45,463 bases of DNA from a virus: IMG/VR virus record IMGVR_UViG_3300048686_000173, positions 1 through 45,463 of that record. One strand, 5' to 3'. A program made the position numbers and the translations under genes. The notes beneath the pieces were generated by a model. That model was given only the letters and a program-made list of their open reading frames with translations. It was not told the origin of the DNA and did not search any database. This document shows positions 111 through 19,831 of the stretch, one piece after another; position 1 is the first letter of the stretch, and every line of letters starts with the position of its first letter.

Positions 111-1139
111 ATGGCTATTATTGAATTAAAAGATAACGAAAATTTGGTATCCTATATGTTAACCGAATTAAGGTTAAGTAGGATAGACCATAAATTTCTA
201 GAAAGTCTTAGACAGTATGCTAGGACTAAAAAACAAATAACGTCAAATCAAGATACCCTTTTCAAAAAGATATTGGGAAAATATAATAGACAATTTGTAA
301 AGAAGGAATTCTTTTTAGAAAAGTTGCTATCACTAAATTGGAGTTGTACGGTTATACCTAGCAGTCCTTTATATACAGAGGCTTATTTGTTATTAGAAAA
401 TAACAAAATAATATTTAGATCGCCTTTTAATAGAGAATTTGTTAATGACTTGAAAAAAAATCCTATATACTCTATGAAATGGATTAGAGAAAGCAAGCAA
501 TATGAACTAAATTATAGTACCAATATATTGCGTGACTTGGTTACTATTACTTCAAACCATTTTCCTAAATATAATCTCTGTCCAGCGTTAGAAAATATAT
601 TGAAAGAGGTAAACAATTACTCAGATGTAAAGTATTGGGATCCGACACTAGTACAATCTAATGGAAAGTTATTTTTATATGCAATTAATAGTTTTTTAAT
701 GGACGCTATATCTAATATCAATTTAGAATTCGATATAAAAACTATATCAGACTTGACTCAATATGGAATTAATATTGATTCTTCTGTGACTGACTATATA
801 ATAAACACTAAAAATGTTTTACCTAACAAAGTAAAATTTGCAAGCCAATTTAATCCTATAGTTGAAAAAACAGACTTACCTGATATTATAGATTGGCTAA
901 AAGAATTAGAGTGTGATGCGGTGTTAGGTGTGTGGAATACTTCAGAAATACCTGATAAATTGAAACTTGCCGGCATAGCATCCTATAATATTACTGATTC
1001 AAAAGTAAATATAAAACAAGATGAACATCGTAAAATTGTTGTGTTCAACTTTAAATCGTTTGACCTAGTCTATTACAAACCTTATAGACTTTATAAACTG
1101 GTAAGGTTTGTTAATTCTCAACCAATAACTATAAAATGA
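111..1139 (+). CDS. Unknown protein upstream of UvsW (342 aa)
   Basis: This protein is not recognised with certainty. It is Lys/Asn/Ile-rich with no signal peptide or membrane segment visible. Roughly residues 95-150 (about FRSPFNREFV onward, with W and Y spaced as in F-x-V-x-L-K-x-P-x-W) resemble the short HARP-type repeat that accompanies some SNF2-family annealing helicases; this is only a by-eye impression. Its stop overlaps the UvsW start (ATG 1136, TGA 1137-1139), so the two are probably translationally coupled and may act together in recombination or fork repair. The start at 111 is the first ATG after a strong promoter whose expected +1 is that same ATG. A real gene is likely because the frame is long and tightly coupled to UvsW. 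Confidence 0.75.
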   Translation: MAIIELKDNENLVSYMLTELRLSRIDHKFLESLRQYARTKKQITSNQDTLFKKILGKYNRQFVKKEFFLEKLLSLNWSCTVIPSSPLYTEAYLLLENNKIIFRSPFNREFVNDLKKNPIYSMKWIRESKQYELNYSTNILRDLVTITSNHFPKYNLCPALENILKEVNNYSDVKYWDPTLVQSNGKLFLYAINSFLMDAISNINLEFDIKTISDLTQYGINIDSSVTDYIINTKNVLPNKVKFASQFNPIVEKTDLPDIIDWLKELECDAVLGVWNTSEIPDKLKLAGIASYNITDSKVNIKQDEHRKIVVFNFKSFDLVYYKPYRLYKLVRFVNSQPITIK

Positions 1140-2593
1140 AACAATGTAAATTAATTATCAAAGATGAAGTCAATGTAAAACTTGAAGGGCTTGAATTGGC
1201 TGAACGCAAAGCATTGATGAAGATGTTTGAGTATGAGATACCGGGCGCAAGATATTTACCCGCGGTAAGGTTAGGTCGATGGAATGGTAAGGTCAGTTAT
1301 TTTAGTTTGGGTGGTAGTACCTATATCAATCTATTGCCTGAGATTCTTCCTGTACTAGACAGAGCCGGATATGATATTGAGTTAGACGATATCAGAGAAT
1401 ACACAAATACTTTCAATTTTGCTCAAGTGTCCGAGGATCTATTTTCTAATCATGTTTGGCCCAAGAAGCATCCATTAGAAGGACAGCCTATTAAGTTGCG
1501 TGACTACCAAGTAGAAGTGATTAATCGCTTCCTTGAAAATCCACAATGTATTCAGGAAGTTGCTACAGGTGCAGGCAAGACGATCACAACTGCCGCATTG
1601 AGTTATAGCATACAAGAATATGGGCGCAGTATCGTTATCGTTCCTAATAAAAGCCTAGTCACACAAACAGAAGAAGATTACAAGAATGTAGGATTAGATG
1701 TTGGGGTATACTTTGGTGATCGTAAAGAGATAGGCAAGACTCATACTATCTGCACATGGCAAAGTCTAAACAACATGCTTAAGAAAACAAAATCAGGTGA
1801 GGCTGAAATTCCTATTGGCGAGTTTATTGAAGATGTTGTTTGTATCATAGTTGATGAGGTACATCAAGCAAAAGCCGATGCATTAAAGACATTAATGACA
1901 AGTGTGTTCAGTCAGGTACCAATTCGTTGGGGTCTAACTGGCACTATTCCTAAAGCAAAGTTTGAAGCACAGGCATTGTTCGTTAGTATAGGTCCTGTTA
2001 TCGGTAAACTAAGTGCAAGCGAACTACAAGATAAGGGTGTATTGGCAAGATGCCATGTCAACATTATACAGTTAAAAGATGACGTTGAATTCAGTAACTA
2101 TCAAAGCGAACTAAAACACTTATTAGAAGATAAAAATAGGTTAGATACTATCGCTGAATTAGTCCTTAAAATTAAGGATAGTGGCAACACACTTATTCTA
2201 GTAGACCGTGTAAATGCAGGAAAAGAATTAATTGACAGATTACCGAATGCGGTATTTGTGTCCGGAGAAACTAAACTAACAGAAAGAAAAGAAGAATATG
2301 ATGAAGTTGCGACTTCTAATGATAAGATTATTGTGGCGACTTATGGTGTGGCCAGTGTGGGTATTAATATTCCTAGGATTTTTAATCTGGTTCTTTTGGA
2401 GCCCGGAAAAAGCTTTGTTAGGGTTATACAAAGCATTGGGCGAGGTATTAGAAAGGCTGAGGACAAAGACTTCGTACAAATCTGGGACATAACAAGTAGT
2501 TGCAAGTTTGCCAAACGACATTTGACTCAAAGAAAAACCTTTTACAATGAAGCAAACTATCCATTTTCTATTGAAAAACTTACTTACAGGTAA
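1136..2593 (+). CDS. uvsW: UvsW-like ATP-dependent DNA helicase (superfamily 2)
   Basis: T4 UvsW unwinds and anneals branched DNA, helps rescue stalled forks, and clears R-loops in the switch from origin- to recombination-dependent replication. The 485-residue protein carries the SF2 set in order: a Q-motif-like LRDYQVEV near 121, Walker A ATGAGKT at 143-149, Walker B DEVH at 240-243, motif III TGT at 268-270, and motif VI QSIGRGIRK at 432-440 with its arginine fingers. The N-terminal 100 residues (IPGARYLPAVRLGRWNGK region) match the small substrate-binding domain of UvsW. Length is close to T4 UvsW. It shares a 4-base overlap with the preceding gene and is followed by a new promoter that begins inside its last codons. 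Confidence 0.95.
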   Translation: MKQCKLIIKDEVNVKLEGLELAERKALMKMFEYEIPGARYLPAVRLGRWNGKVSYFSLGGSTYINLLPEILPVLDRAGYDIELDDIREYTNTFNFAQVSEDLFSNHVWPKKHPLEGQPIKLRDYQVEVINRFLENPQCIQEVATGAGKTITTAALSYSIQEYGRSIVIVPNKSLVTQTEEDYKNVGLDVGVYFGDRKEIGKTHTICTWQSLNNMLKKTKSGEAEIPIGEFIEDVVCIIVDEVHQAKADALKTLMTSVFSQVPIRWGLTGTIPKAKFEAQALFVSIGPVIGKLSASELQDKGVLARCHVNIIQLKDDVEFSNYQSELKHLLEDKNRLDTIAELVLKIKDSGNTLILVDRVNAGKELIDRLPNAVFVSGETKLTERKEEYDEVATSNDKIIVATYGVASVGINIPRIFNLVLLEPGKSFVRVIQSIGRGIRKAEDKDFVQIWDITSSCKFAKRHLTQRKTFYNEANYPFSIEKLTYR

Positions 2594-2599
2594 TATAAT
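2571..2599 (+). promoter_or_regulatory. Sigma70-type (early) promoter
   Basis: TTGAAA at 2571-2576 and TATAAT at 2594-2599 are separated by exactly 17 bases. The -35 lies inside the end of uvsW. Only six bases separate the -10 from the ATG at 2606, so the expected +1 coincides with the start codon and no ribosome-binding site can be present in the message. Confidence 0.75.
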
Positions 2600-2605
2600 A
2601 ATAAC

Positions 2606-3106
2606 ATGAGAATTCTAACATTAGAAAATACATTCTACAATCTTGAAACATTGCCGGAAGAAATAGATGATCTGCGCTTTGCTATATTAGATAATAGCAA
2701 TCCGCAAAATGTAGATTACCATTACATTCCATTAATCTTTTTAGAAAGTTTTAACAGTCCTGCATTAGTATTGCGTATAGGCAATCAAACAATCAAGATG
2801 CCAGTGGATTGGCAAATATTGATTGGTGAGCAAGAACATGGTGATTTAGAAACACTGCCATTAACTAGTATTAACGACCGCGGATTTAATGCCTTTGAAT
2901 TTAATCCATTGAGTTCATTCAGCCCTAGTTTCTTGCCAATCGAAATCGTAGACATATACCATGATGTAACTTGGTATGCCCCTCGATTAAAGAACGGACA
3001 ATTTTTATGTGTCCCCATTGACGATAGCCCTCAACCCAGATGCATTTATTTTGTAAAAGAGATTAGTAGAAATTGTGAGATAGTAGATTATAGTCAGGCG
3101 TTTTGA
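2606..3106 (+). CDS. Unknown conserved-looking phage protein (166 aa)
   Basis: No named family is recognised. The protein is soluble, mixed alpha/beta in character and moderately acidic, with many aromatic and proline residues (for example MPVDWQ and TWYAPRL). It stands between uvsW and the gp62-like clamp-loader gene, starts seven bases after a consensus -10 box, and ends with TGATG, overlapping the next start by one base. This places it in a replication or late-transcription gene set. It could be an accessory factor, but no motif supports a specific role. Confidence 0.7.
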   Translation: MRILTLENTFYNLETLPEEIDDLRFAILDNSNPQNVDYHYIPLIFLESFNSPALVLRIGNQTIKMPVDWQILIGEQEHGDLETLPLTSINDRGFNAFEFNPLSSFSPSFLPIEIVDIYHDVTWYAPRLKNGQFLCVPIDDSPQPRCIYFVKEISRNCEIVDYSQAF

Positions 3107-3696
3107 TGGCAACGAAAAAAAATATACCAGTTGAAGAAAAGTTTGAAAAACAGGATCTCGACTTGTTCGAGGTCCTTGCCGCACTTGATAGAAAAGATTA
3201 TAACTATTACGATAAACTAACTGAAGAACAACAGAAGAAGTTTGTCCCTTATATGCTTACATTATGGATGAGTTGTATTAAGGGAAACAGCACATTGCAG
3301 GGATATTATGTAATGAATACTGAATATACTGCAAACAAGTATCTATTCAATGAGAATGTGCAGAAGCATCCTAAACTACAATGGTTGATGTTATGTGCCG
3401 CAAGTCCCGGTATAGGAAAACAATTCCATCAGTGGATCCCACACATCAGAGATAAGGTAGCAAAATTAAAAGAATCAGCAAAAGTAAAAGAGGTTAAAGA
3501 ATTCTACAAGAAGATTTATCCTAAAACAGATGAAAAATCATTAGACGAATTCGTGGATGCATTTGTTGAAGACCATAAAAGAAAAACATATCTTGCAGAA
3601 ACTTTTCCCAATCTAAAATTAGACGATATTGAAACATTAAACGCACTGGTAACAGATGAAGATATTAAACACTACGAAAGAGAAAGAGGCAATTAA
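3106..3696 (+). CDS. Clamp-loader small subunit, gp62-like
   Basis: T4 gp62 joins gp44 to load the sliding clamp gp45 for the replicative polymerase. The 196-residue product resembles gp62 (187 aa) in length and pattern: a segment KFVPYML...M at about 45-60 parallels KFMVENAL of T4, followed by a YYVMNTEYTANKYLF helix, then LMLCAASPGIGKQFHQWIP parallel to T4 LMAAVPRGKRYGKWAK, and a basic C-terminal half. There is no P-loop, as expected for the small subunit. I place the start at ATG 3106, overlapping the previous TGA, rather than the TTG three bases earlier. The gp44 and gp45 genes are not in this window. The assignment is by pattern and could be wrong. Confidence 0.7.
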   Translation: MATKKNIPVEEKFEKQDLDLFEVLAALDRKDYNYYDKLTEEQQKKFVPYMLTLWMSCIKGNSTLQGYYVMNTEYTANKYLFNENVQKHPKLQWLMLCAASPGIGKQFHQWIPHIRDKVAKLKESAKVKEVKEFYKKIYPKTDEKSLDEFVDAFVEDHKRKTYLAETFPNLKLDDIETLNALVTDEDIKHYERERGN

Positions 3697-4225
3697 GCAA
3701 CCTAAACATAGTTGTGAATTTTGCAAGCGTGAGTTCCTGCGTGAGTCTACTATACTTAAACATATATGTGAGTATAAGCAACGATGGCTCAACAAAGATA
3801 TGCAAGGAAATCGTATAGGATTTCAAGCATGGTTACAATTTTATAAAAAGAACAGTACAGGAAAAAAGAATAAGACTTTTGAAGAATTTATAAGGTCTGC
3901 TTACTATACGGCTTTTATAAAATTTGGCAATTACTGCGTACAAATCAATTGTATTAACGTATCTAGGTTTGCAGATTGGTTAGTAAAGAACCAAATTAAA
4001 ATAGATTCATGGTGTACTGATACTAACTATACTAAGTTTTTGATAGAATATTTGCGACTAGAAGATCCATTGGATGCTATAGCCCGTAGTATAGAGGCAG
4101 CAATAGAACTATCAGAAATCGAAACTATACAATCTAAAGATGTACTAAGATATGCAAACAAGAATCGTGTTTGTTATGCAGTCACTACAGGTAAAATTAG
4201 TCCATGGATGCTTTATCTAGTTTAG
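3656..4225 (+). CDS. Zinc-finger protein of unknown function (189 aa)
   Basis: Residues about 19-37 form a zinc finger, C-x2-C with a later H-x3-C (CEFCKREFLRESTILKHIC), close to a C2H2/C2HC finger and suggesting DNA or protein binding. The rest is a helical domain with no recognised signature. The gene begins inside the gp62-like gene in another frame, with a 41-base overlap, which is long for this genome, so the true start may be somewhat later. Its end overlaps a 47-codon gene. The context suggests a replication or transcription accessory role. Confidence 0.65.
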   Translation: MKILNTTKEKEAIKQPKHSCEFCKREFLRESTILKHICEYKQRWLNKDMQGNRIGFQAWLQFYKKNSTGKKNKTFEEFIRSAYYTAFIKFGNYCVQINCINVSRFADWLVKNQIKIDSWCTDTNYTKFLIEYLRLEDPLDAIARSIEAAIELSEIETIQSKDVLRYANKNRVCYAVTTGKISPWMLYLV

Positions 4226-4347
4226 ATTCAACACAAGAAAAACTTATTATGGATTATATTAATCCTGAACAATGGGCTATCAAATTCAAAAGAATTCCTG
4301 ATAAAGTGATTGAAGTGAAGGAGTTATTGAGTGCCGCGGGATACTGA
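4204..4347 (+). CDS. Small unknown protein (47 aa)
   Basis: An ATG at 4204 opens 47 codons ending with TGA at 4345-4347, bridging an otherwise unassigned gap. The product begins MDALSSLDSTQEK and has the helical, charged core NPEQWAIKFKRIPDKVIEVK. It overlaps the end of the preceding gene by 22 bases and the GTG start of the next by 17, in keeping with the packed arrangement here. Function is unknown. Short length lowers confidence, but continuous coupling supports it. Confidence 0.55.
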   Translation: MDALSSLDSTQEKLIMDYINPEQWAIKFKRIPDKVIEVKELLSAAGY

Positions 4348-4540
4348 ATTTAAACATTGTGTAAATCTGTATTGGATGAATGGTGATACTGTTTCTGATT
4401 GGAATGAAAAGTGTGCCCATGCCATAGAATTGTTTGGGTTGCCGGGCGATAAATTTGTCACACACCCCACTGAAACTTATATGGAGTTTTATTTCAAAAA
4501 CGAAACTGACGCAATACATTTTAGTTTGGCATGCTTGTAA
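4331..4540 (+). CDS. Small array protein 1 (69 aa)
   Basis: First member of a run of short genes. The GTG start at 4331 overlaps the preceding 47-codon frame, and an upstream GAG/GGAG-like stretch (4318-4323) could serve as a ribosome-binding site. The C-terminus reads FYFKNETDAIHFSL, matching the array signature F-x(4)-D-x(3)-F-x-L. It looks like a short alpha/beta fold, a strand followed by an amphipathic helix. No known function. Confidence 0.65.
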   Translation: MPRDTEFKHCVNLYWMNGDTVSDWNEKCAHAIELFGLPGDKFVTHPTETYMEFYFKNETDAIHFSLACL

Positions 4541-4797
4541 AGTTACTTGAGTTTGAATTACCCACTGGTGCTGGCGGAATGTCCGCGCAAATGTCTAGAT
4601 CCCTAATACTACGTAGATTTGAGCAGTTTAGAAAAGAACATGGGGTTGAATTTAAGTACCTAACTGTGGGATATACTCTTGAAGTTTGGTTTACAAAAGA
4701 CAGCGACTATACACTATTCTTTTTAATGCACGACACCAATGACGGTTGGCGTAAATATAAATTAAAAGAAAAAGAAATAAATGGCGACACCGACTGA
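4531..4797 (+). CDS. Small array protein 2 (88 aa), divergent
   Basis: The ATG at 4531 overlaps the previous gene by ten bases. The body VWFTKDSDYTLFFLMHD (about residues 52-68) aligns with the array signature, but here it is internal and followed by a basic tail with GWRKYKLKEKE. The N-terminal part is unrelated to its neighbours apart from size. The end overlaps the next start by 17 bases. Function unknown. Confidence 0.65.
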   Translation: MLVKLLEFELPTGAGGMSAQMSRSLILRRFEQFRKEHGVEFKYLTVGYTLEVWFTKDSDYTLFFLMHDTNDGWRKYKLKEKEINGDTD

Positions 4798-5038
4798 CAT
4801 TGAATATGTTTACAATTATTATGATCCTGTTCGTGGCTGGGATCATACAAATCAAAACTGGTATACTTATAACATATACAATATAGGTCCGTTCAAACAT
4901 CTGGAAATTGTTAAGTGGTTATATGATATGATTGATAATCCTGAGAGACATGCAAGATGGGTCAGATTTCAAAATGATTCAGCATTTAGATTTCGTTACG
5001 AGCGTGATTATATAATGTTTACATTGCGCTGGTCATGA
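4781..5038 (+). CDS. Small array protein 3 (85 aa)
   Basis: A short aromatic-rich protein (many Y and W in the first half) ending FRYERDYIMFTLRWS, a clear copy of the array C-terminal signature with D, F, L and W in register. Its TGA at 5036-5038 overlaps the following ATG at 5035, so translation is probably coupled. No catalytic motif. Function unknown. Confidence 0.7.
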   Translation: MATPTDIEYVYNYYDPVRGWDHTNQNWYTYNIYNIGPFKHLEIVKWLYDMIDNPERHARWVRFQNDSAFRFRYERDYIMFTLRWS

Positions 5039-5238
5039 CTTTAATAAAATTAAATGGTGATCTTACACCTGAACAAGAACAATGGATATTGCACAATGTG
5101 GGACCAAGGATGTTTTACTTGCACAATAGTTTAGGCGGAGAAGGTTGGATTCTTAAAAGAAACTATAAAAATCATAGTTGGGAACTGGCTTTTAAAGATG
5201 AAAAAGATGCAATAATGTTTAATTTACGCTGGCTATGA
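5035..5238 (+). CDS. Small array protein 4 (67 aa)
   Basis: This is the best single example of the signature: the protein ends FKDEKDAIMFNLRWL. It starts at an ATGA overlap with the previous gene and ends at an ATGA overlap with the next. Composition is soluble, with no membrane segment. Duplicated from the same ancestor as its neighbours, by inference from the shared C-terminus and length. Confidence 0.7.
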   Translation: MTLIKLNGDLTPEQEQWILHNVGPRMFYLHNSLGGEGWILKRNYKNHSWELAFKDEKDAIMFNLRWL

Positions 5239-5450
5239 CTGAAGTTAAAATATATGATTGGAGTCCTATAAAAATCATAGACACTGTATCAGATATGCGT
5301 AAGAACGGATTTGTACAGCATGTTGATTTTGATTTTGAATATCATCCTCCTGTATACGATTCTTTTACAGGAAATACCGTTGACAAGTTTGTGATTTTTA
5401 GATTTTATACTGATAAATTAGCCAGCTGGTTTACTCTTAAATGGGGTTAA
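5235..5450 (+). CDS. Small array protein 5 (71 aa)
   Basis: The product ends FRFYTDKLASWFTLKWG, the array signature with a changed spacing around the D. It is the last plus-strand gene of the left block. Its TAA (5448-5450) overlaps the stop of the opposite-strand PP-loop gene, so the two operons converge tail to tail with no room for a terminator. Confidence 0.65.
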   Translation: MTEVKIYDWSPIKIIDTVSDMRKNGFVQHVDFDFEYHPPVYDSFTGNTVDKFVIFRFYTDKLASWFTLKWG

Positions 5451-6544
5451 ACAAAACTATTGTTAGGTACATAAAATTCATTTAAATCTATCTTATCTAG
5501 AAATGTATAGTCATCAGTTATTGCTTTGGCAACAATTTTCTTAATCATCAAATTAAACAAACTACCCATTTTAATTTTTTCATTATAATAAATTTCATCT
5601 TTGTTGTAGTCAAAAATAAACTTTTTAGATTCTAGTTTGTATGACTTCCAATCTTTCAATAGTTTTTTGTCGTGGTTTAACATACTCCATTTTTGAAAAT
5701 CAGTGCTTGCAAAGAAATGATGATAGTATGTATCCATAAACGTTTGATTTACTAATTGTCTAGCGTTTGGATCCATAAAAGCAAGCATTCTAAAATAAAC
5801 AAATTGCCATTTGAAGCAAAAGTTATACCACCAAAAGAAATGAAAATTTGAGTGCACTTCGCAAGGTGCAGCATGTCTGATTTGGTCATCAAGAACATCA
5901 AACCATTTGTTAGCGTGTCCTATCTCCATAGATTTACTTAACCAATCGACAATAAATTCACGGCTATACTTGTCATGTAACTTATCGCTATCAGCATACT
6001 TATAGACTTTGGCTAAAATATCACTGCCAAATAATTGATCATTGCATTCCCCGCCCACAATTAAACTAGTGCCATCCATCATTGAACTATATCTTTCACT
6101 AGAGATAATGGTAAACTTTGTTCTTATGTGATCGTAGAAAAAATTAATATTTTCATTAATGCTATCTGTGCTCATTGCAACACGAACTCTATTTTTCAGT
6201 TCATGTGCATCAAGCACTTTCATAAAACTTATTAATACCGCAGTACTATCTATTCCACCACTATAAAATAAAGTAATAGGGATATTAAGTTTTTTACTTA
6301 GTTCTACTAGTTCAACTGCTCTTTTTAAACAGCAATCTTCATATGATAAATCAAATCCCGTCAAATCTGTAGGTATTTTAAATGGTTCATACACTTTATA
6401 TCTATATGGCATTACAACATGATTAGTTCTATCGACTAATCCAATTGGAACTTTTACTAATTTATAAATTGCAGACCACTGAGCGACATCAGTACTTGGA
6501 TATGAACTAAAGTCATGCGATTTTGTAAAATAAAAATTTTTCAT
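5447..6544 (-). CDS. Asparagine-synthase-like PP-loop ATPase (365 aa)
   Basis: Enzymes of the asparagine-synthase C-terminal family activate a carboxylate with ATP and pass it to ammonia or another amine. The pyrophosphate-binding loop SGGIDS lies at residues 95-100, and GGECNDQLFGSD at 164-175 matches the family's second signature (GEGADELFGG in AsnB). The N-terminal glutaminase domain with its Cys2 nucleophile is absent: the first 85 residues do not resemble it. It therefore probably uses free ammonia, a partner amidotransferase, or makes an amide bond with a different amine. It is the last gene of a minus-strand operon with an unknown gene and a cupin. Substrate cannot be read; modification of a surface sugar, peptide or metabolite are all possible. 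Confidence 0.8.
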   Translation of the reverse strand: MKNFYFTKSHDFSSYPSTDVAQWSAIYKLVKVPIGLVDRTNHVVMPYRYKVYEPFKIPTDLTGFDLSYEDCCLKRAVELVELSKKLNIPITLFYSGGIDSTAVLISFMKVLDAHELKNRVRVAMSTDSINENINFFYDHIRTKFTIISSERYSSMMDGTSLIVGGECNDQLFGSDILAKVYKYADSDKLHDKYSREFIVDWLSKSMEIGHANKWFDVLDDQIRHAAPCEVHSNFHFFWWYNFCFKWQFVYFRMLAFMDPNARQLVNQTFMDTYYHHFFASTDFQKWSMLNHDKKLLKDWKSYKLESKKFIFDYNKDEIYYNEKIKMGSLFNLMIKKIVAKAITDDYTFLDKIDLNEFYVPNNSFV

Positions 6545-6553
6545 TAACTACCT

Positions 6554-7198
6554 TTAACTTATGTTAGTGTAAATAGTCGCAACAGCCTCATTATAGTTTT
6601 TAACAACATCATCCATAGTTTTAGACATAGATATTTTTCTTGCGAATTTAGTGTATAAAGCATGGCTTCGTAAGTAAACTAATCCATATCCTTCTTGACG
6701 TAATTTTAATTCTTGGTAAGCAGCCTGAGGAGGAATTTCTTGTATATTAGCCCAATCTTGTATAGCAGTAGTATACTCATTTTTTTCCGGATCGCATTTG
6801 TTTAGTTGATCTATTAAAAAAGGCATCATATGTGAAGTGGCATAAAAATCCACCATTTTCCTACAACTTCTTCTGATTTGAAATTCCCATTGATTTAAGA
6901 AAAATTTCTTGTGAATAAATATTCTTCTTTTTTCAATCCATTCATTTGTTATGAATTTAGGAGGTAATTCAGTAATATTAAAATTAAAATCAACCTGGTA
7001 ATGACGTTCTATATCATTAAAATTATATTTCCAATCATCTCGTTCAGCAACTAATAATTTAGGAAATACCATTGATAAACCATTTGTTATTCCTAACAAC
7101 AAACTAGAAGCATGACTATCACATGTAGCAGTACCATATATAGAATTGGTACTGTCATCTACTATTAAAATAAAATTGTTATAAATTTGATCGTTCAT
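6554..7198 (-). CDS. Unknown protein in PP-loop/cupin cassette (214 aa)
   Basis: Not recognised. The N-terminal stretch FILIVDDSTNSIYGTATCD resembles a beta hairpin. The middle has an aromatic and basic segment with paired Arg (IRRSCRKM), and the C-terminal third (IPPQAAYQELKLR onward) is predicted helical. There is no signal peptide. It lies nine bases upstream of the PP-loop gene and directly abuts the cupin gene, so it is co-transcribed with both and presumably serves the same pathway, as a carrier, substrate or partner. Confidence 0.65.
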   Translation of the reverse strand: MNDQIYNNFILIVDDSTNSIYGTATCDSHASSLLLGITNGLSMVFPKLLVAERDDWKYNFNDIERHYQVDFNFNITELPPKFITNEWIEKRRIFIHKKFFLNQWEFQIRRSCRKMVDFYATSHMMPFLIDQLNKCDPEKNEYTTAIQDWANIQEIPPQAAYQELKLRQEGYGLVYLRSHALYTKFARKISMSKTMDDVVKNYNEAVATIYTNIS

Positions 7199-7810
7199 TT
7201 AGGTTCTATGAGTTCCATTGAACATGGGATGATTAAATTCTTGGTCTACACTACTAAAAATATGTAATGGAAGTACAACTAAACCATCGCCTTGAGTACT
7301 AAAATGGTGTGGTATCATCTTATCTAATATTAATACGTCACCTGGATTTAGTGGTACAATGGTGTAATTATCGTTTTGACCTATGTAACTTGTACCTTTG
7401 CCACTAAGAACATATACTACTCTTGCAGTTGAATGAATGTGATGAGCCTGTTCACTAGTAAAAGGTGGAATATATAACATTTGCCATGTGGGGTCTCCTA
7501 ACCGATTAGGATTTATAAGTTGCTTTGTACTACATCCATTAATGTATGGCAGGTCTGTTAGTCTGTTAAATGAACTTGACCTTTTTTCAGGGGTGTACCC
7601 AAATATTTCAACGCATAAAATCTTACTATTAATGTTACTTCCGTCACCAGATACACTAATCACTTCATTATTGTCTATAAACCAATAACTAGATTTTTTG
7701 TCTGTAGGTACAATATGACTACCTATATAAGCCTTGTACTGATATAGGTCGTATTCTGATGACTCAATTATGGTTGATTTATGTTTGTTTGCGTGTTGGT
7801 AGTTTGTCAT
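7199..7810 (-). CDS. Cupin-domain protein (203 aa)
   Basis: Residues about 114-182 form a single cupin barrel. Motif 1 is QAHHIHSTARVVYVLSGKG (metal-ligand candidates H124 and H126), and motif 2 is NPGDVLILDKMIPHHF with H168/H169. The usual glutamate after the HxH pair is not seen, so the metal site may be altered or the fold may only bind a ligand. Cupins include sugar epimerases, isomerases and dioxygenases, and the reaction here is unknown. I use the ATG at 7810, three bases after the expected +1 of a late-type promoter, rather than the TTG at 7831, which lies upstream of that start. It is the first gene of the minus-strand cassette. Confidence 0.75.
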   Translation of the reverse strand: MTNYQHANKHKSTIIESSEYDLYQYKAYIGSHIVPTDKKSSYWFIDNNEVISVSGDGSNINSKILCVEIFGYTPEKRSSSFNRLTDLPYINGCSTKQLINPNRLGDPTWQMLYIPPFTSEQAHHIHSTARVVYVLSGKGTSYIGQNDNYTIVPLNPGDVLILDKMIPHHFSTQGDGLVVLPLHIFSSVDQEFNHPMFNGTHRT

Positions 7811-8231: not shown

Positions 8232-8474
8232 ATGGATATCATACAGGAATTATCACCTATCATTGAGATGATTGACGAAATAAAGGTCAACCCCTCTGAT
8301 AGTAACAAAGTAACATTCAAAGTTAAAGATGACCCCATGACTGTAATTAAATGGTGTCGTAGAAACTTTGGTAATAGGGGTGATGGTTGGGATTTCTCCG
8401 GTGGGACTAAAAATATAGAAGTAACGATTTGGTCAAGTAAACTAAAGGTTATGTGGGAATTATGGCAGAATTAA
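8232..8474 (+). CDS. Small array protein 7 (80 aa), divergent
   Basis: Starts one base after the preceding TGA. The C-terminus VTIWSSKLKVMWELWQN keeps the hydrophobic register of the array signature but lacks the Asp. The middle (WCRRNFGNRGDGWDF) is similar in feel to the WCEIYIGEFDKQWY of the next gene, which supports duplication. Function unknown. Confidence 0.65.
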   Translation: MDIIQELSPIIEMIDEIKVNPSDSNKVTFKVKDDPMTVIKWCRRNFGNRGDGWDFSGGTKNIEVTIWSSKLKVMWELWQN

Positions 8475-8683
8475 ATTCAGAATGGAAGTATAAAATAACA
8501 ATCAACGAAAAAGACTGGGAACAAGTTCAAAAATGGTGTGAAATTTATATTGGTGAGTTTGACAAGCAATGGTATAAATTGGGCATGGATATTGCACAGA
8601 ATATATTTGATGCGGACTATAGAACCACGTGGTTGTTTAAAGAAGAAAAAGATGTTATAATGTTTAAATTGAGATGGGCATAA
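8462..8683 (+). CDS. Small array protein 8 (73 aa)
   Basis: Ends WLFKEEKDVIMFKLRWA, almost the same as the fourth array gene, and closes the array. I choose ATG 8462 rather than the GTG nine bases upstream because it gives a compact protein and a 13-base overlap typical of this block. Its TAA shares one base with the ATG of the exonuclease (TAATG). Function unknown. Confidence 0.7.
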   Translation: MAELNSEWKYKITINEKDWEQVQKWCEIYIGEFDKQWYKLGMDIAQNIFDADYRTTWLFKEEKDVIMFKLRWA

Positions 8684-9240
8684 TGGCTAATGATATAATG
8701 ATAGATTTGGAAACGCTTGATACAACTCCATATTGTGTTATACTAACTATTGGGGCTGTTCGTTTTGATCCTAAGGGGCAAGGTGTTGTTGAAAGATTGG
8801 AATTACGTCCTACTATTGAAGATCAGACAGAGATACATAATAGAGTGATTAACGAAGATACATTACGTTGGTGGAGTACACAAAGTCCTGAGGCACAAGA
8901 AGAAGCATTGGGTGATCGGGATAGAATTTCATTTAGAGAATGCATGGAGACCCTTTATAAGTTTTGTTGGAACCGTCGTGCTGTTTGGAGTAATGGCGCG
9001 GGCTTTGATATCGTAGCATGTGAAACAGGAATGCGTCAAACATTGACTGAGTATCCTAATCCTATACCTTGGCCCTTCTATACTGCTAGAGATACTAGAA
9101 CATTGTATGAGATTGCTGGTGTAAAACTAAAAGATGGCGGGCATGTAACAAGTCATAAGGCTGTAGAAGATGCCGAACGACAGGCTATTGTCGTGCAACA
9201 AGCGTATATGAAATTAATAAAAGCAGGATTTATGGCATGA
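8683..9240 (+). CDS. DEDD-family 3'-5' exonuclease (Rv2179c/DexA-like)
   Basis: A single-domain DnaQ-superfamily nuclease. ExoI contains DIMIDLET with the catalytic D and E, followed by the P-x(2)-VILTIGAVRFD strand. NEDTLRWWSTQSPEA is the WW segment typical of the Rv2179c and T4 DexA branch. ExoII is VWSNGAGFDI, and ExoIII is SHKAVEDAERQA with H and D, making it a DEDDh enzyme. It could trim RNA or single-stranded DNA during replication or host DNA breakdown. I start at ATG 8683, sharing a base with the preceding TAA, instead of ATG 8674 inside the previous gene; this leaves 185 residues. It overlaps the next gene by four bases. Confidence 0.85.
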   Translation: MANDIMIDLETLDTTPYCVILTIGAVRFDPKGQGVVERLELRPTIEDQTEIHNRVINEDTLRWWSTQSPEAQEEALGDRDRISFRECMETLYKFCWNRRAVWSNGAGFDIVACETGMRQTLTEYPNPIPWPFYTARDTRTLYEIAGVKLKDGGHVTSHKAVEDAERQAIVVQQAYMKLIKAGFMA

Positions 9241-9821
9241 AGTTCAATAGTGATATTGATATTGATTTTGGTGATAGGGACAAAGTATTGTCATTAATTA
9301 AACATATCCCTGCCGCTATGCGTAAAGTTGATCCTAAACGCAAACATGCGACTGGTATATATGTTACTGACATTCCATATGATCCTGTATCTGATATGGC
9401 ATCTATAGACTATTCTGATGCTGAAATGCGAGGTTACCTCAAATTAGATTTTCTTAATGTTCATGTATATAATAAGGTACGTGATGAGAAGCATCTAAAT
9501 GAATTAATGAACTCTGAACCTGATTGGAATATGTTAAAAGACTATAATAAGATGAAAAGTCTTATACATTTACAAAATCACTATCAGACAATCAAAAAAA
9601 TGCCAGAGCCTATTGATAGTATTCCTAGACTTGCTATGTTTTTAGCAGTTATTCGACCTAGTAAAAAGCATCTAATAGGACTTCCTTGGTCAGAAGTCTC
9701 TAAAACTATATGGGATCGTGATAGTACTGGATATAGTTTTAAGAAAAGTCACGCTATAGCCTATGCACATTTAGTAGTTGTGCATATGAATTTACTTAGG
9801 GAATCCTTTTTACTAGAGTAA
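9237..9821 (+). CDS. Free-standing DnaE-like polymerase fragment (194 aa)
   Basis: The N-terminus DIDIDFGDRDKVL (about residues 6-18) looks like the DnaE/PolC palm motif PDIDIDF-x-D, and the C-terminal segment FKKSHAIAYAHLVVVHM (about 169-185) looks like the DnaE FNKSHAxAYA motif that lies far downstream in a full polymerase. A complete C-family polymerase is over 1,000 residues, so the catalytic module cannot be whole. The conserved middle (GIYVTDIPYDP, LKLDFLNVHVY) also recalls DnaE text. T4-like phages use a B-family polymerase, so this is an accessory or repurposed fragment of unknown role. It is coupled to the exonuclease by an ATGA overlap. Confidence 0.65.
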   Translation: MKFNSDIDIDFGDRDKVLSLIKHIPAAMRKVDPKRKHATGIYVTDIPYDPVSDMASIDYSDAEMRGYLKLDFLNVHVYNKVRDEKHLNELMNSEPDWNMLKDYNKMKSLIHLQNHYQTIKKMPEPIDSIPRLAMFLAVIRPSKKHLIGLPWSEVSKTIWDRDSTGYSFKKSHAIAYAHLVVVHMNLLRESFLLE

Positions 9822-10173
9822 TGCTTCTGCGTTTGGTCCTGCGTTTGTGTAAATCACTAATACTACAAGCAGGACCGTGTAATATCGTAAGGCTCTTGTT
9901 ATTAAAAGTACGCAAATAGGGTCTGAAAATACTCCACTCATCCTTTAAAAACAGGTTTATGGGGATAAGTCTATTACTCTCCCACCACCAAACATCTCCT
10001 AATTCTAGGAACTTTTCCTTAATTATTGGGTCTACAATAGAGCCATAATCGTATATAGTAGTGACAATATCATCCCTATTTTGTACTATGCCAACATAAT
10101 CTTGGTTAGCATAGGAGCATATTGTTATGAAGGGGTGATTTTCACTTAATTTTTTAAAGAAATCTTGTTGCAT
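9796..10173 (-). CDS. Unknown minus-strand protein (125 aa)
   Basis: No family named with confidence. It has a beta-rich N-terminal half (FITICSYANQDYVGIVQN, then a DIVTTIYDYG segment), a WWWESNRLIPINLF block and a very basic tail (KRRTKRRSITLVKR) that could bind nucleic acid. Its 3' end overlaps the DnaE-like gene on the other strand by 26 bases. A TATAAATA late-type box precedes it with about a 15-base leader. A real gene is supported by the promoter and composition. Confidence 0.65.
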   Translation of the reverse strand: MQQDFFKKLSENHPFITICSYANQDYVGIVQNRDDIVTTIYDYGSIVDPIIKEKFLELGDVWWWESNRLIPINLFLKDEWSIFRPYLRTFNNKSLTILHGPACSISDLHKRRTKRRSITLVKRIP

Positions 10174-11055: not shown

Positions 11056-11063
11056 AGCAGTTG

Positions 11064-12041
11064 ATGTTTGATATACTAACTTTAATTCCGGGCAAGAAAA
11101 AAGTAACACATGGCGGTTGGCATAGTTTCAACGCCATTTGTTGCCACCATAACGGACATAAACCCGATCAGCGAGGACGCGGCGGAATAAAGTTTGATGG
11201 TCAAACAAATTGGTCTTATCATTGTTTTAACTGTGGGTTTAAGTGTGGTTTTAAACTAGGAAGAATGATAACACACAATACAAAAATGCTATTAACTTGG
11301 TGTGGAGTTGACGATACACAAATTGGAAAGTGGAATCTTGAAAGTCTAAAGAAAAAAGATATTTTAGATTTTACGCAACCGAAACAAAAAGAAAAGAAAA
11401 TTAAATTTAAAGACCATGAATTGCCTGATGATGCAGAATTATTAGATGAAACTAATCCTGCACACAAAGTGTATGTAGACTATCTGAAAGACAGGGGTAT
11501 AAGTAGTACAGAATATCCTTTTATGATAACACCAAATGCGTTTGGCAGAATGGCAAATCGTGTTATCATACCTTATACATATAAAAACAAAATTGTAGGG
11601 CACACAAGTAGATTTTTAGATAATAAAACTCCGAAGTATATCAATGAACAACAAGCAGGATATGTATTCGGATATGATTTTCAAAAGCCTGAATGGCAAG
11701 TTTGTATATTGGTAGAAGGAATTTTTGATGCACTAAGCATAAGTGGTTGTGCATTAACACACAACACAATCAATGACGATCAGGTATCAATGTTAGCACA
11801 ATTAAATAGGCGTATTATATTTGTACCAGATCATGATAAAACTGGTCTTGAAACATGTGATAGGGCGTTAGAATTAGGTTATAGTGTAAGTATACCCAAT
11901 TGGGGGTTTGATGTAAAAGACGTAAACGATGCGGTAGTAAAATATGGGAAACTGCCTACACTACTAAGTATTCTACAGAACGCAACAAATAGTAAAATTA
12001 AAATAGAAATGCAAAGGAAAAAACTTGGTAAAGGATTATAA
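11064..12041 (+). CDS. 61: DNA primase, gp61-like
   Basis: T4 gp61 makes pentaribonucleotide primers for Okazaki fragments within the gp41-gp61 primosome. An N-terminal zinc-binding domain is visible (C26/C27 and H28/H29, then HCFNCGF with C54 and C57). A TOPRIM domain follows, with LVEGIFDA (E218, G219) and the metal-binding VPDHDKTG (D256, D258). Length, 325 residues, is near T4 gp61 (342). I use ATG 11064 rather than the TTG one codon earlier. The gene overlaps the gp41 gene by 17 bases, the same gene order as in T4. Confidence 0.92.
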   Translation: MFDILTLIPGKKKVTHGGWHSFNAICCHHNGHKPDQRGRGGIKFDGQTNWSYHCFNCGFKCGFKLGRMITHNTKMLLTWCGVDDTQIGKWNLESLKKKDILDFTQPKQKEKKIKFKDHELPDDAELLDETNPAHKVYVDYLKDRGISSTEYPFMITPNAFGRMANRVIIPYTYKNKIVGHTSRFLDNKTPKYINEQQAGYVFGYDFQKPEWQVCILVEGIFDALSISGCALTHNTINDDQVSMLAQLNRRIIFVPDHDKTGLETCDRALELGYSVSIPNWGFDVKDVNDAVVKYGKLPTLLSILQNATNSKIKIEMQRKKLGKGL

Positions 12042-13449
12042 CACAGATATTCAAAAACTCTTTTTGCGTATGATGGTTACAAACGCAGAGTTATATACTA
12101 GGGTTATGAATATTATGAACCCTTCTAACTTTGATAAAACATTAAAGCCTGTGGCTGAGTTCATCAAAGAGCATAGTGACAAATATAAAGTTTTGCCGGA
12201 TGTTAATCAAATTAAAGCAACATGCGGTGTTGAGGTTGAACCCATAGAAAATATGGATGAGGGACACAACGAATGGTTCTTAGATGAATTTGAAAAATTT
12301 ACTAAAAGACAAGAACTAGAAAGAGCAATCTTAAAGAGTGCTGACTTACTTGAAAAGGGTGAGTATGACCCCGTTGAAAAACTAATTAAAGATGCAGTAC
12401 AAATCAGTCTACAAAAAGACATGGGTACAGATTACTTTGCTGATCCTAAGGCTCGACTATTAGCATTGAAATCTAACAACGGTCAGGTAAGCACAGGCTG
12501 GCCTAGTATGGATAGAAAACTCTATGGAGGTTTCAATAGGGGTGAACTACAAATCTTTGCTGGTGGTAGCGGATCAGGTAAGAGTTTGTTCATGCAGAAC
12601 CTGAGTGTTAACTGGGCACAACAAGGACTAAGCGGAGTGTATGTTACACTTGAACTTAGCGAAGGGTTGTGTAGTATGCGTATTGATAGTATGATGACTG
12701 ATACAAGCAGTCGTGAAATTTTCAAAGACATTGATAATGTCGAAATGAAAGTTAAAATGTTAGCCAAGAAGGCTGGTAAGTTACGTGTGAAGTACATGCC
12801 AGCACAGAGTACAGTAAATGACTTACGGGCATATTGTAAAGAACTTCAAATACAGACAGGTATGAAACTTGATTTCTTATGTGTTGATTATTTGGATTTG
12901 CTTATGCCTGTCAGCGCAAAGGTCAGCCCTAGTGATTTGTTTGTTAAAGATAAGTATGTGTCGGAAGAATTGCGTAACTTGGCTAAAGAATTGAATGTGT
13001 TGTTTGTAACAGCAAGTCAATTGAATCGTTCAGCAGTTGAGGAGATTGAATTTGATCACAGTCACATTAGCGGTGGTATTAGTAAAATCAATACAGCGGA
13101 TAATGTATTTGGAATCTTTACATCTAGGTCTATGCGTGAGCGCGGCCAATATCAATTACAATTGATGAAAACCCGTAGTAGTTCAGGTGTAGGTCAAAAG
13201 ATTGAACTAGAATTCAACGTAGAAACACTTAGAATTACAGATCCTGATCCAGATGGATACGGAGAACAACAAAAAAACAATAATCCACAGCCTAGTCCTA
13301 ATGACATTATGAGTAGACTTAAGGCTCAATCTACTGTTACTGAAACTATAAATCCATCAACAGGGGAGATTGAACCACTACAAAAGAAGGTTGTAGCCGA
13401 CGTACAAGGGGCAAAACTCAAGTCTTTACTTAATTCCTTAAAGAAATAA
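12025..13449 (+). CDS. 41: Replicative DNA helicase, gp41-like (DnaB family)
   Basis: Hexameric 5'-3' helicase of the replication fork. The N-terminal helical domain (1-140) is followed by a RecA-like core with Walker A GGSGSGKS at 180-187, a TLELSE motif near 208-213, Walker B LCVDYLDLL with D288, and the SQLNRSA sensor region. Length, 474, matches T4 gp41 (475). I keep the TTG start at 12025: AAGGAA lies six bases upstream and the resulting N-terminus aligns in length with T4; the next in-frame ATG (12070) would remove 15 residues. The last 60 residues are a polar, Gln/Asn/Pro-rich tail that may contact the primase. Confidence 0.93.
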   Translation: MVKDYNTDIQKLFLRMMVTNAELYTRVMNIMNPSNFDKTLKPVAEFIKEHSDKYKVLPDVNQIKATCGVEVEPIENMDEGHNEWFLDEFEKFTKRQELERAILKSADLLEKGEYDPVEKLIKDAVQISLQKDMGTDYFADPKARLLALKSNNGQVSTGWPSMDRKLYGGFNRGELQIFAGGSGSGKSLFMQNLSVNWAQQGLSGVYVTLELSEGLCSMRIDSMMTDTSSREIFKDIDNVEMKVKMLAKKAGKLRVKYMPAQSTVNDLRAYCKELQIQTGMKLDFLCVDYLDLLMPVSAKVSPSDLFVKDKYVSEELRNLAKELNVLFVTASQLNRSAVEEIEFDHSHISGGISKINTADNVFGIFTSRSMRERGQYQLQLMKTRSSSGVGQKIELEFNVETLRITDPDPDGYGEQQKNNNPQPSPNDIMSRLKAQSTVTETINPSTGEIEPLQKKVVADVQGAKLKSLLNSLKK

Positions 13450-18710: not shown

Positions 18711-19517
18711 ATGACAACAAAAACATTGATGGTTTGTGGTTGTAGTTTTTCAGCCCCTAGTACCAAACTAAAATATACAGGAACACATTTTAGTCAAGTT
18801 TTGGCTAAAAAATTGAATTATAAATTAATAAATCTTGCGTATCAAGGTTGTAGTAATGGCGGCATTAGAATTCAAATAGATGAAGTTATCAGACAAAAAC
18901 CCGATTTTGCAATTATTATACCTACCTTTTCTGATAGAATAGAAATTCCTGCCTCAGGATTACAAGTAGATTATAATAACTTATCTTGGTTTGAATTTGA
19001 TAAACTAGTAAAAAATGACAGTGGCTACGATGAAAGTAAAGGTATAAACAATATCAATTGTACCAATAATCTTAGCCCCAGTTTGATTTGTGAGAATTTT
19101 GTTAGCGTTGTCAATAACTGGAAACATGATTATAGGAACAAACAACAATTCAAACCTGAAATCGCAGAAGCATTAAAAAATTATGTATCATACTTGTATG
19201 ATCAAAATTGGAAAACACAACAAGACAGATGGATTATTGAGCATGGTGCACTAGAATTGGTTAAAAATAATATACCATTTATAATAATACCTACAATTTG
19301 GTTATGGAAGCATCAAATAAGTGAACCGAAAATATTAGATAAAAAATATTATACTGTTGATTATGAATACTGCCCACTAACAACATCAAGACAACAAGAA
19401 TATTCTATAGATGATAATTGGAACGCTGACCCCGGTTATCACACTAATGTTGAGGGGCAAATCTATCTAGCCAATATGTATGAAAAATTAATGAAGGAGC
19501 GTTGGAATATATGTTAA
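18711..19517 (+). CDS. SGNH/GDSL-like hydrolase (268 aa)
   Basis: The N-terminal LMVCGCSFSAPS places a candidate nucleophile Ser in the GCSxS block I variant seen in phage SGNH-like proteins. LINLAYQGCSNGGIRIQI gives the Gly and Asn of the following blocks. ADPGYHTNVEGQIYLANMY near the C-terminus carries the D-x(3)-H pair expected of the last block. Such enzymes de-acylate or acylate glycans and lipids. It starts an operon with an Fe-S protein, two glycosyltransferase-like proteins and a nuclease, overlapping the next gene by seven bases. A second, shorter relative is at 34419. Substrate unknown. Confidence 0.7.
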   Translation: MTTKTLMVCGCSFSAPSTKLKYTGTHFSQVLAKKLNYKLINLAYQGCSNGGIRIQIDEVIRQKPDFAIIIPTFSDRIEIPASGLQVDYNNLSWFEFDKLVKNDSGYDESKGINNINCTNNLSPSLICENFVSVVNNWKHDYRNKQQFKPEIAEALKNYVSYLYDQNWKTQQDRWIIEHGALELVKNNIPFIIIPTIWLWKHQISEPKILDKKYYTVDYEYCPLTTSRQQEYSIDDNWNADPGYHTNVEGQIYLANMYEKLMKERWNIC

Positions 19518-19831
19518 GCGTAACTGATGCCGCTAAAAAGAAAATTCAACAAACATTAACCAAAAGAGGTAAAGGTTTAGGAATACGAGTAGGTGTTAGA
19601 ACAACTGGGTGTTCCGGTTTAGCGTATGTGCTTGAATTTGTTGACAATGCTAGTGAATATGATATACAATACGATTGCAATGGCTGTAGTCTATTTGTTG
19701 ACCCAAAAAGTTGTCCATATCTAGAGGGTATGACAATAGATTATGAACGAGTGGGGTTGAATGAGGGTTTTAAATTTATTAATCCTAATGAGAAAGACAG
19801 ATGTGGGTGCGGGGAAAGTTTTAGAGTATGA
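19511..19831 (+). CDS. A-type iron-sulfur carrier (IscA/ErpA/HesB family)
   Basis: A-type carriers bind Fe-S clusters through three cysteines and hand them to apo-proteins. The three ligands are in place: C34 in RTTGCSGLAY, and C98 and C100 in CGCGESF; the overall length of 106 residues is standard. The N-terminal LSVTDAAKKKIQQ also matches the family. I use ATG 19511 instead of the TTG three codons earlier. It overlaps both neighbours by a few bases, in one operon. It may supply clusters to a phage or host Fe-S enzyme in late infection; no obvious phage client is in the window. Confidence 0.93.
   Translation: MLSVTDAAKKKIQQTLTKRGKGLGIRVGVRTTGCSGLAYVLEFVDNASEYDIQYDCNGCSLFVDPKSCPYLEGMTIDYERVGLNEGFKFINPNEKDRCGCGESFRV

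Follow-up and report, generated by a model that had tools for sequence, protein, structure and literature searches.

What is a phage protein of only 194 residues doing with sequence motifs of the catalytic core of the bacterial replicase? The question is raised by an open reading frame (ORF) at positions 9237-9821 of a 45,463-nucleotide viral sequence (IMG/VR record IMGVR_UViG_3300048686_000173, positions 1 to 45,463; hereinafter, the window), in the replication cluster of a phage of the T4-like group. A reading of the window from the sequence alone had noted that the DIDIDFGDRD and FKKSHAIAYAH motifs, which lie hundreds of residues apart in bacterial DnaE, are brought together here in a DnaE-type mini-protein, and had suggested that this protein is coupled to a 3'-5' exonuclease in the manner of a polymerase and its proofreader, and that it might be a decoy of the host replisome or an ancient remnant. 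We propose instead that the ORF likely encodes the C-terminal half (C-half) of a split minimal C-family polymerase that would act with a separately encoded N-terminal half (N-half) beside a presumed B-family polymerase of the phage. The genes of the region that are relevant to the argument are the following:

1136-2593, plus strand: UvsW-type DNA helicase, at the upstream end of the conserved cluster (PHROG 16, E=5.3e-81)
8674-9240, plus strand: 3'-5' exonuclease, Rv2179c-like (PF16473, E=4.7e-30)
9237-9821, plus strand: C-terminal half of a putative split minimal DnaE-type polymerase (PHROG 11778, E=9.5e-58; fold and conservation)
9796-10173, minus strand: convergent gene of unknown function (PHROG 11637, E=3.7e-31)
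11061-12041, plus strand: DNA primase, T4 gp61-like (PHROG 47, E=2.7e-38)
12025-13449, plus strand: DnaB-type replicative helicase, T4 gp41-like (PHROG 19, E=1.9e-74)

Sequence motifs and conservation of the C-terminal half

The match to PHROG 11778, a family labeled "DNA polymerase", spans the whole protein, which comprises catalytic palm strands and shortened fingers. Four stretches of the protein can be placed on Escherichia coli DnaE:

9252-9266, plus strand: DIDID, residues 6-10; D6, D8 and D10 correspond to E. coli D401, D403 and D405
9441-9449, plus strand: K69-L-D71, corresponding to E. coli K553 and D555, the third catalytic Asp (hhalign)
9654-9665, plus strand: R140-P-S-K143, corresponding to the RPGP stretch of the DnaE fingers (hhalign)
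9738-9764, plus strand: FKKSHAIAY, residues 168-176, corresponding to E. coli FNKSHSAAY (756-764), with H172 equivalent to H760

Three of these are DnaE motifs proper and stand in the DnaE order. The first, DIDIDFGDRD (residues 6-15), has as its E. coli counterpart DFDVDF, starting at 401, and was matched by the motif itself together with its place beside the end of the N-half. The second, K69-L-D71-F-L-N, was not listed in the sequence-only reading and is equivalent to E. coli K553-F-D555-F-L-G (KFDFLGL at 553). The third, FKKSHAIAYAH (residues 168-178), carries the steric-gate position and was placed by global alignment on FNKSHSAAYA, which starts at 756. In profile-profile comparison, residues 34-143 align with residues 508-642 of E. 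coli DnaE (hhalign, E=6.6e-4). No significant match to the C-half alone was obtained in Pfam or NCBIfam, and its sequence profile gave no significant DnaE match in the PDB; the relationship to DnaE thus rests on the PHROGs, profile-profile alignment, the order of the motifs and the predicted fold. Given the silence of Pfam and NCBIfam, the initial recognition of DnaE-related motifs from the bare sequence was a good one, and it is borne out by PHROG 11778, conservation and fold. DnaE descent therefore stands, but the notion of a whole mini-polymerase does not, because the ORF accounts for only half of an active site: the GRGS dNTP-binding motif is absent from the C-half and is carried by the partner N-half, where GxGRGS is identical in all 82 sequences compared.

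All members of the C family share the catalytic triad D401/D403/D555, without exception, and D405 sets DnaE apart from PolC (PMC3919608); ribonucleotides are presumably kept out by E. coli H760, acting as the steric gate (PMC8485763). The equivalents of these residues are nearly immutable in the phage family. Conservation of the aspartates, which the sequence-only reading had put forward as a check on its idea, is complete among the distinct relatives, with D6, D8 and D10 identical in 146 of 146 and D71 in 147 of 147, as are K69, H37, R140, P141, K143, H172 and Y176. When 13 more divergent relatives were added (~160 in all), D6, D8, D71, K69 and H172 remained fixed (H172, the H760 equivalent, in 160/160 C-halves), and a single one of the 13 had D10 replaced by S. 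Strong purifying selection acts on both halves, with median dN/dS values of 0.065 over 25 C-half pairs and 0.071 over 14 N-half pairs. A pseudogene or relic is ruled out by the dN/dS of ~0.065 together with the invariance of these residues, and the combination of fixed catalytic residues and low dN/dS argues for parts of a working enzyme rather than a decoy or relic.

Predicted folds and missing domains

Structure prediction, likewise suggested at the outset, points in the same direction. The AlphaFold2 model of the 194-residue protein (pLDDT 94.8, pTM 0.85), computed like that of the partner from alignments with rows from viral contigs only, was matched in the PDB to Pol III alpha chains at all of the first ten ranks, with E values of 0.004-0.065 and probabilities of at most 0.98; the match that follows is at E=1.8. 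The TM-scores are low, 0.43 at best when normalized by query length, which is in keeping with large deletions. For the N-half (pLDDT 87.5, pTM 0.67), the best four matches are also Pol III alpha, none of them with E<0.05.

Small polymerases of the Pol X/Pol beta type resemble the phage pair in total size and in the general nucleotidyltransferase fold, but the sequence and fold matches of the phage halves are to Pol III alpha only. When the halves are mapped to E. coli DnaE, the thumb (~433-510) is missing, much of the fingers is gone and nothing corresponds to the region past ~780; we take these limits to be those of the E. coli thumb and of the start of the HhH, clamp-binding and OB regions, respectively. 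Neither half has a match to, or room for, the PHP and (HhH)2 domains, which are nearly universal among bacterial C-family members (PMC3919608). Thus, compared with bacterial DnaE/Pol III alpha, the phage pair shares the catalytic triad, the equivalents of D405, K553 and H760, the fold and, in the partner, GRGS, but it consists of two chains of ~170 and 194 residues in place of one of ~1160, and is devoid of the PHP, thumb, (HhH)2, clamp-binding and OB domains. The phage protein is a divergent catalytic-core relative of DnaE, not a standard DnaE.

The N-terminal half and the cut point

The N-half is a protein of ~170 residues (PHROG 11127) that contains the GRGS motif and is encoded by a separate gene. 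A 172-aa truncated alpha subunit, CBB_328, had been noted in phage CBB (PMC5259590), and an alpha subunit, gp316, in Atu_ph07 (PMC6102473). CBB_328 belongs to PHROG 11127 and matches the Pol III alpha NTPase domain (PF07733, E=2e-8); the N-half profile retrieves Pol III alpha from the PDB at 3e-4 and aligns with residues 209-393 of E. coli DnaE (hhalign, E=3.5e-7). The N-half ends at the sequence that matches E. coli ERFLN (393), and nearly all C-halves begin 1-7 residues ahead of the DxDxD motif (equivalent to 401), with a few starting 11-16 residues ahead, so that the two halves abut in one palm loop with neither gap nor overlap. These abutting ends are the strongest sign that the two proteins are pieces of one enzyme.

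The distribution of the halves is consistent with such a partnership. Each half was found once in all 11 full-length named phage records, including, in the case of Slicko01 (141 kb), an N-half that was missed by plain tblastn and recovered by profile search; given the size of this phage, the system extends beyond jumbo genomes. Among the 23 large contigs (68-364 kb) fetched by either half, both halves are present on 18, the remaining five being fragments; 17 of the 18 have 35-53 kb between the pair, with the partner located downstream in close relatives of the window. The window itself is a fragment in which no N-half was found; this is as expected, since the window stops at 45.5 kb and the predicted place of the partner gene is ~44-62 kb. 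The trees of the two halves agree (Mantel r 0.84, 16 genomes), a correlation that would be expected from shared inheritance alone and that we therefore do not count as evidence of contact. The gene for clamp loader gp44 neighbors that of the N-half. Both halves are also encoded by Sharanji, a phage of E. coli K-12 MG1655.

Phyletic spread and gene neighborhood

Relatives of the 194-residue protein were detected by tblastn in 63 phage records, which include RaK2, 121Q, PBECO4, GAP32, CBB and PA5oct-like phages as well as Atu_ph07, SCTP-2, XacN1 and Slicko01, and at least 460 IMG/VR stretches encode relatives, the window belonging to a large environmental clade with 56-76% identity. The C-half is thus common to phages of very different hosts. 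A search of the bacterial genome collection yielded 15 matches but no clear cellular homologue; every match is on a contig from a metagenome-assembled or uncultured genome and likely represents binned phage. The sequence-only reading had placed the protein in a phage group that uses a B-family polymerase, which agrees with the presence of a B-family gene in all 11 full-length named relatives.

From most of the named phages to the window, the order of the C-half, a convergent small gene, another gene, the primase and the helicase is retained. Among loci with enough flanking sequence, 67 of 68 have the primase downstream of the C-half, and 53 of 54 have the helicase there. The convergent PHROG 11637 gene, which overlaps the 3' end of the C-half gene, keeps this arrangement in 79 of the 81 relatives whose sequence extends far enough, as well as in the majority of named phages inspected.

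Several other ORFs of the window deserve mention in their own right. The product of 3103-3696 (PHROG 11758, unknown function) resembles by eye the small subunit of the T4 clamp loader, gp62, which is missing in phage CBB according to the description of that phage (PMC5259590). Three short ORFs (4781-5038, 5235-5450 and 8453-8683) have similar ends (FTLRWS, FTLKWG and FKLRWA), as if they formed a small family of paralogues; SGGIDS, a motif characteristic of ATP pyrophosphatases (asparagine synthetase-like enzymes, for instance), occurs in the ORF at 5447-6544 (minus strand); and CSG and CGCG motifs give the product of 19502-19831 the look of an IscA-like, A-type iron-sulfur carrier, which is unusual in a phage structural region.

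The upstream exonuclease

In the window, the ATG of the C-half (9237) overlaps the TGA of the exonuclease gene (9238-9240), and this is the part of the suggested proofreader-like coupling that holds; conserved linkage of the two genes does not. The exonuclease lies within 2.2 kb upstream of the C-half in 67 of the 68 environmental relatives with room for it, but is the immediate upstream neighbor in only ~30 of these 67-68 close relatives, and its place is taken in others by different genes whose stop overlaps the C-half start in the same way. One such replacement, a cytidylyltransferase-like gene, directly precedes the C-half with this overlap in at least 14 environmental relatives. The position directly upstream of the C-half is a variable cargo slot. 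Furthermore, the exonuclease was not detected in any of the 11 full-length phages, and its family, present in 541 phage records, occurs mostly in unrelated phages. Accordingly, with adjacency in ~30 of 68 relatives and no detection in 11 of 11 phages, we reject the exonuclease as a constant proofreading partner, that is, as a general feature of the system.

A narrower version of the same idea, which would add to the split-polymerase explanation without replacing it, is that the exonuclease is a true proofreading subunit of the split polymerase. The overlap in the window and the near-constant proximity among the environmental relatives speak for it, as does the location of epsilon-like exonucleases of another family (PHROG 192) ~4.4 kb upstream of the C-half in GAP32 and 2.3 kb downstream of it in XacN1. 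Against it stand the inconstant adjacency, the identical overlaps formed by other genes, the lack of detection in the full-length phages and the mostly unrelated distribution of the family. We regard such a subunit as doubtful; a proofreading partnership in the clade of the window is possible and would be, at best, clade-specific.

Predicted function of the proposed split polymerase

Homology, residue conservation, the fold of each half, purifying selection, co-occurrence and complementary ends are the observations behind the split-polymerase proposal, from which we infer physical association of the halves, polymerase activity and a role for the pair. The gene neighborhoods also speak for it, with primase and helicase near the C-half and clamp loader gp44 near the N-half, as does the independent publication for this phage group. 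Under this proposal, the N-half would supply the N-terminal portion of the palm, with GRGS holding the dNTP triphosphate, and the C-half would supply the metal ligands (three Asp) and shortened fingers, the helix with the steric-gate His selecting dNTPs. The two chains are predicted to associate without splicing and to complete a single active site at the junction of the two, yielding an enzyme of ~365 residues without PHP, thumb, (HhH)2 and clamp-binding domains. Such an enzyme would probably be of low processivity or rely on phage accessory proteins, given that the thumb and the clamp-binding region are lacking, and this would fit a specialized role beside the B-family replicase, such as repair, gap filling, or a part in replication limited to one strand or one stage. 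With the thumb and most of the fingers missing, templated processive synthesis is not assured. On balance, we lean towards the view that assembly in trans without splicing creates the smallest C-family polymerase, a thumbless enzyme of ~365 residues with a dedicated job in widespread large T4-like phages.

Should this be the case, a C-family core can do without both PHP and thumb, and the palm of a replicase can be severed through its catalytic sheet and still work. An active pair would define the minimal core of the bacterial replicase family, provide a natural polymerase active site split over two chains encoded tens of kilobases apart, and explain the second, bacterial-type polymerase in phages that possess a B-family replicase.

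The extent of the deletions also brings up the idea that the two halves form an active, C-family-derived nucleotidyltransferase, small and similar to Pol beta, which would add a few nucleotides without a template, for example in end processing. The absence of the thumb and much of the fingers alongside invariant metal- and dNTP-binding residues would be compatible with such an enzyme, and the loss would then mark a change of job; yet the steric gate and the surrounding fingers helix are kept in 147 of 147 relatives, and the gene stays beside the primase and helicase, which fits templated DNA synthesis, so we consider this alternative unlikely. Lower still we rank a non-catalytic replisome subunit in which the old palm would have become a scaffold or a DNA-binding element; in its favor, the role of main replicase falls to a B-family enzyme and the neighbors are replication genes, but a scaffold has no need for an invariant Asp triad, Lys, GRGS and steric-gate His across relatives, and this makes the idea quite improbable. 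The least likely alternative is the decoy or inhibitor of the host replisome, a DnaE mimic trapping the host clamp, epsilon or tau, which could be imagined where a phage that has a replicase of its own also encodes a relative of DnaE; we reject it, as very improbable, on conservation and on co-occurrence with the half that completes the palm, since a mimic of this sort would require the clamp-binding, HhH and C-terminal regions of DnaE, none of which is present, the most conserved residues are the catalytic ones, and the fixed triad and steric gate, the dN/dS of ~0.065, the constant partner and the wide range of hosts together indicate a functional subunit of an enzyme.

Precedents and other split DnaE proteins

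The split polymerase has a published precedent. A split, minimal Pol III alpha was recognized in the genomes of group 2.2 jumbo phages by Iyer et al. (2021; PMC7824862), and the features in common with the full-length phages examined here are the T4-like group with a B-family polymerase, a small Mg- and template-binding protein, and an NTP-binding part in a distant gene. Compared with this description, the window shows no difference of kind: its protein is a stand-alone C-terminal Mg/template-binding unit, and, judging by the text of that article, PHROG 11778 would correspond to the C-terminal unit of Iyer et al. Split Pol III alpha as a kind is already described there (PMC7824862). In difference from the jumbo-phage pair, the pair is found here also in a 141-kb phage, below jumbo size. 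The new elements of the present analysis are the exact cut point, conservation at the level of residues, including the steric gate, constant co-occurrence of the halves, their fixed spacing in the clade of the window, the presence of the pair in a genome smaller than jumbo size and the lower weight given to the exonuclease link. Beyond Iyer et al. (2021), our literature search found no paper testing either half at the bench.

DnaE is broken elsewhere in phages, too. In Cellulophaga phage phiST, the break between gp044 and gp045 falls in the palm loop that is also cut in the pair discussed here (PF07733 positions 98/100); unlike that pair, gp044/gp045 are adjacent genes that, apart from the break, amount to a full-length DnaE including PHP, fingers and HhH, and they bear extra non-DnaE tails at the break. 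An otherwise full-length DnaE broken at the palm loop is seen both in phiST (gp044/gp045, 3815-7415) and in Bacteroides phage BS-TP1 (gp3, 1325-3058). The extra non-DnaE sequence at the phiST/BS-TP1 break looks like split-intein remnants, and Pfam detected no intein there. The palm loop may be a recurrent fracture point. Finally, one contig with the split pair (IMGVR_UViG_3300027804_000045) also encodes, at 1890-3569, a 559-aa unsplit DnaE-like protein without PHP.
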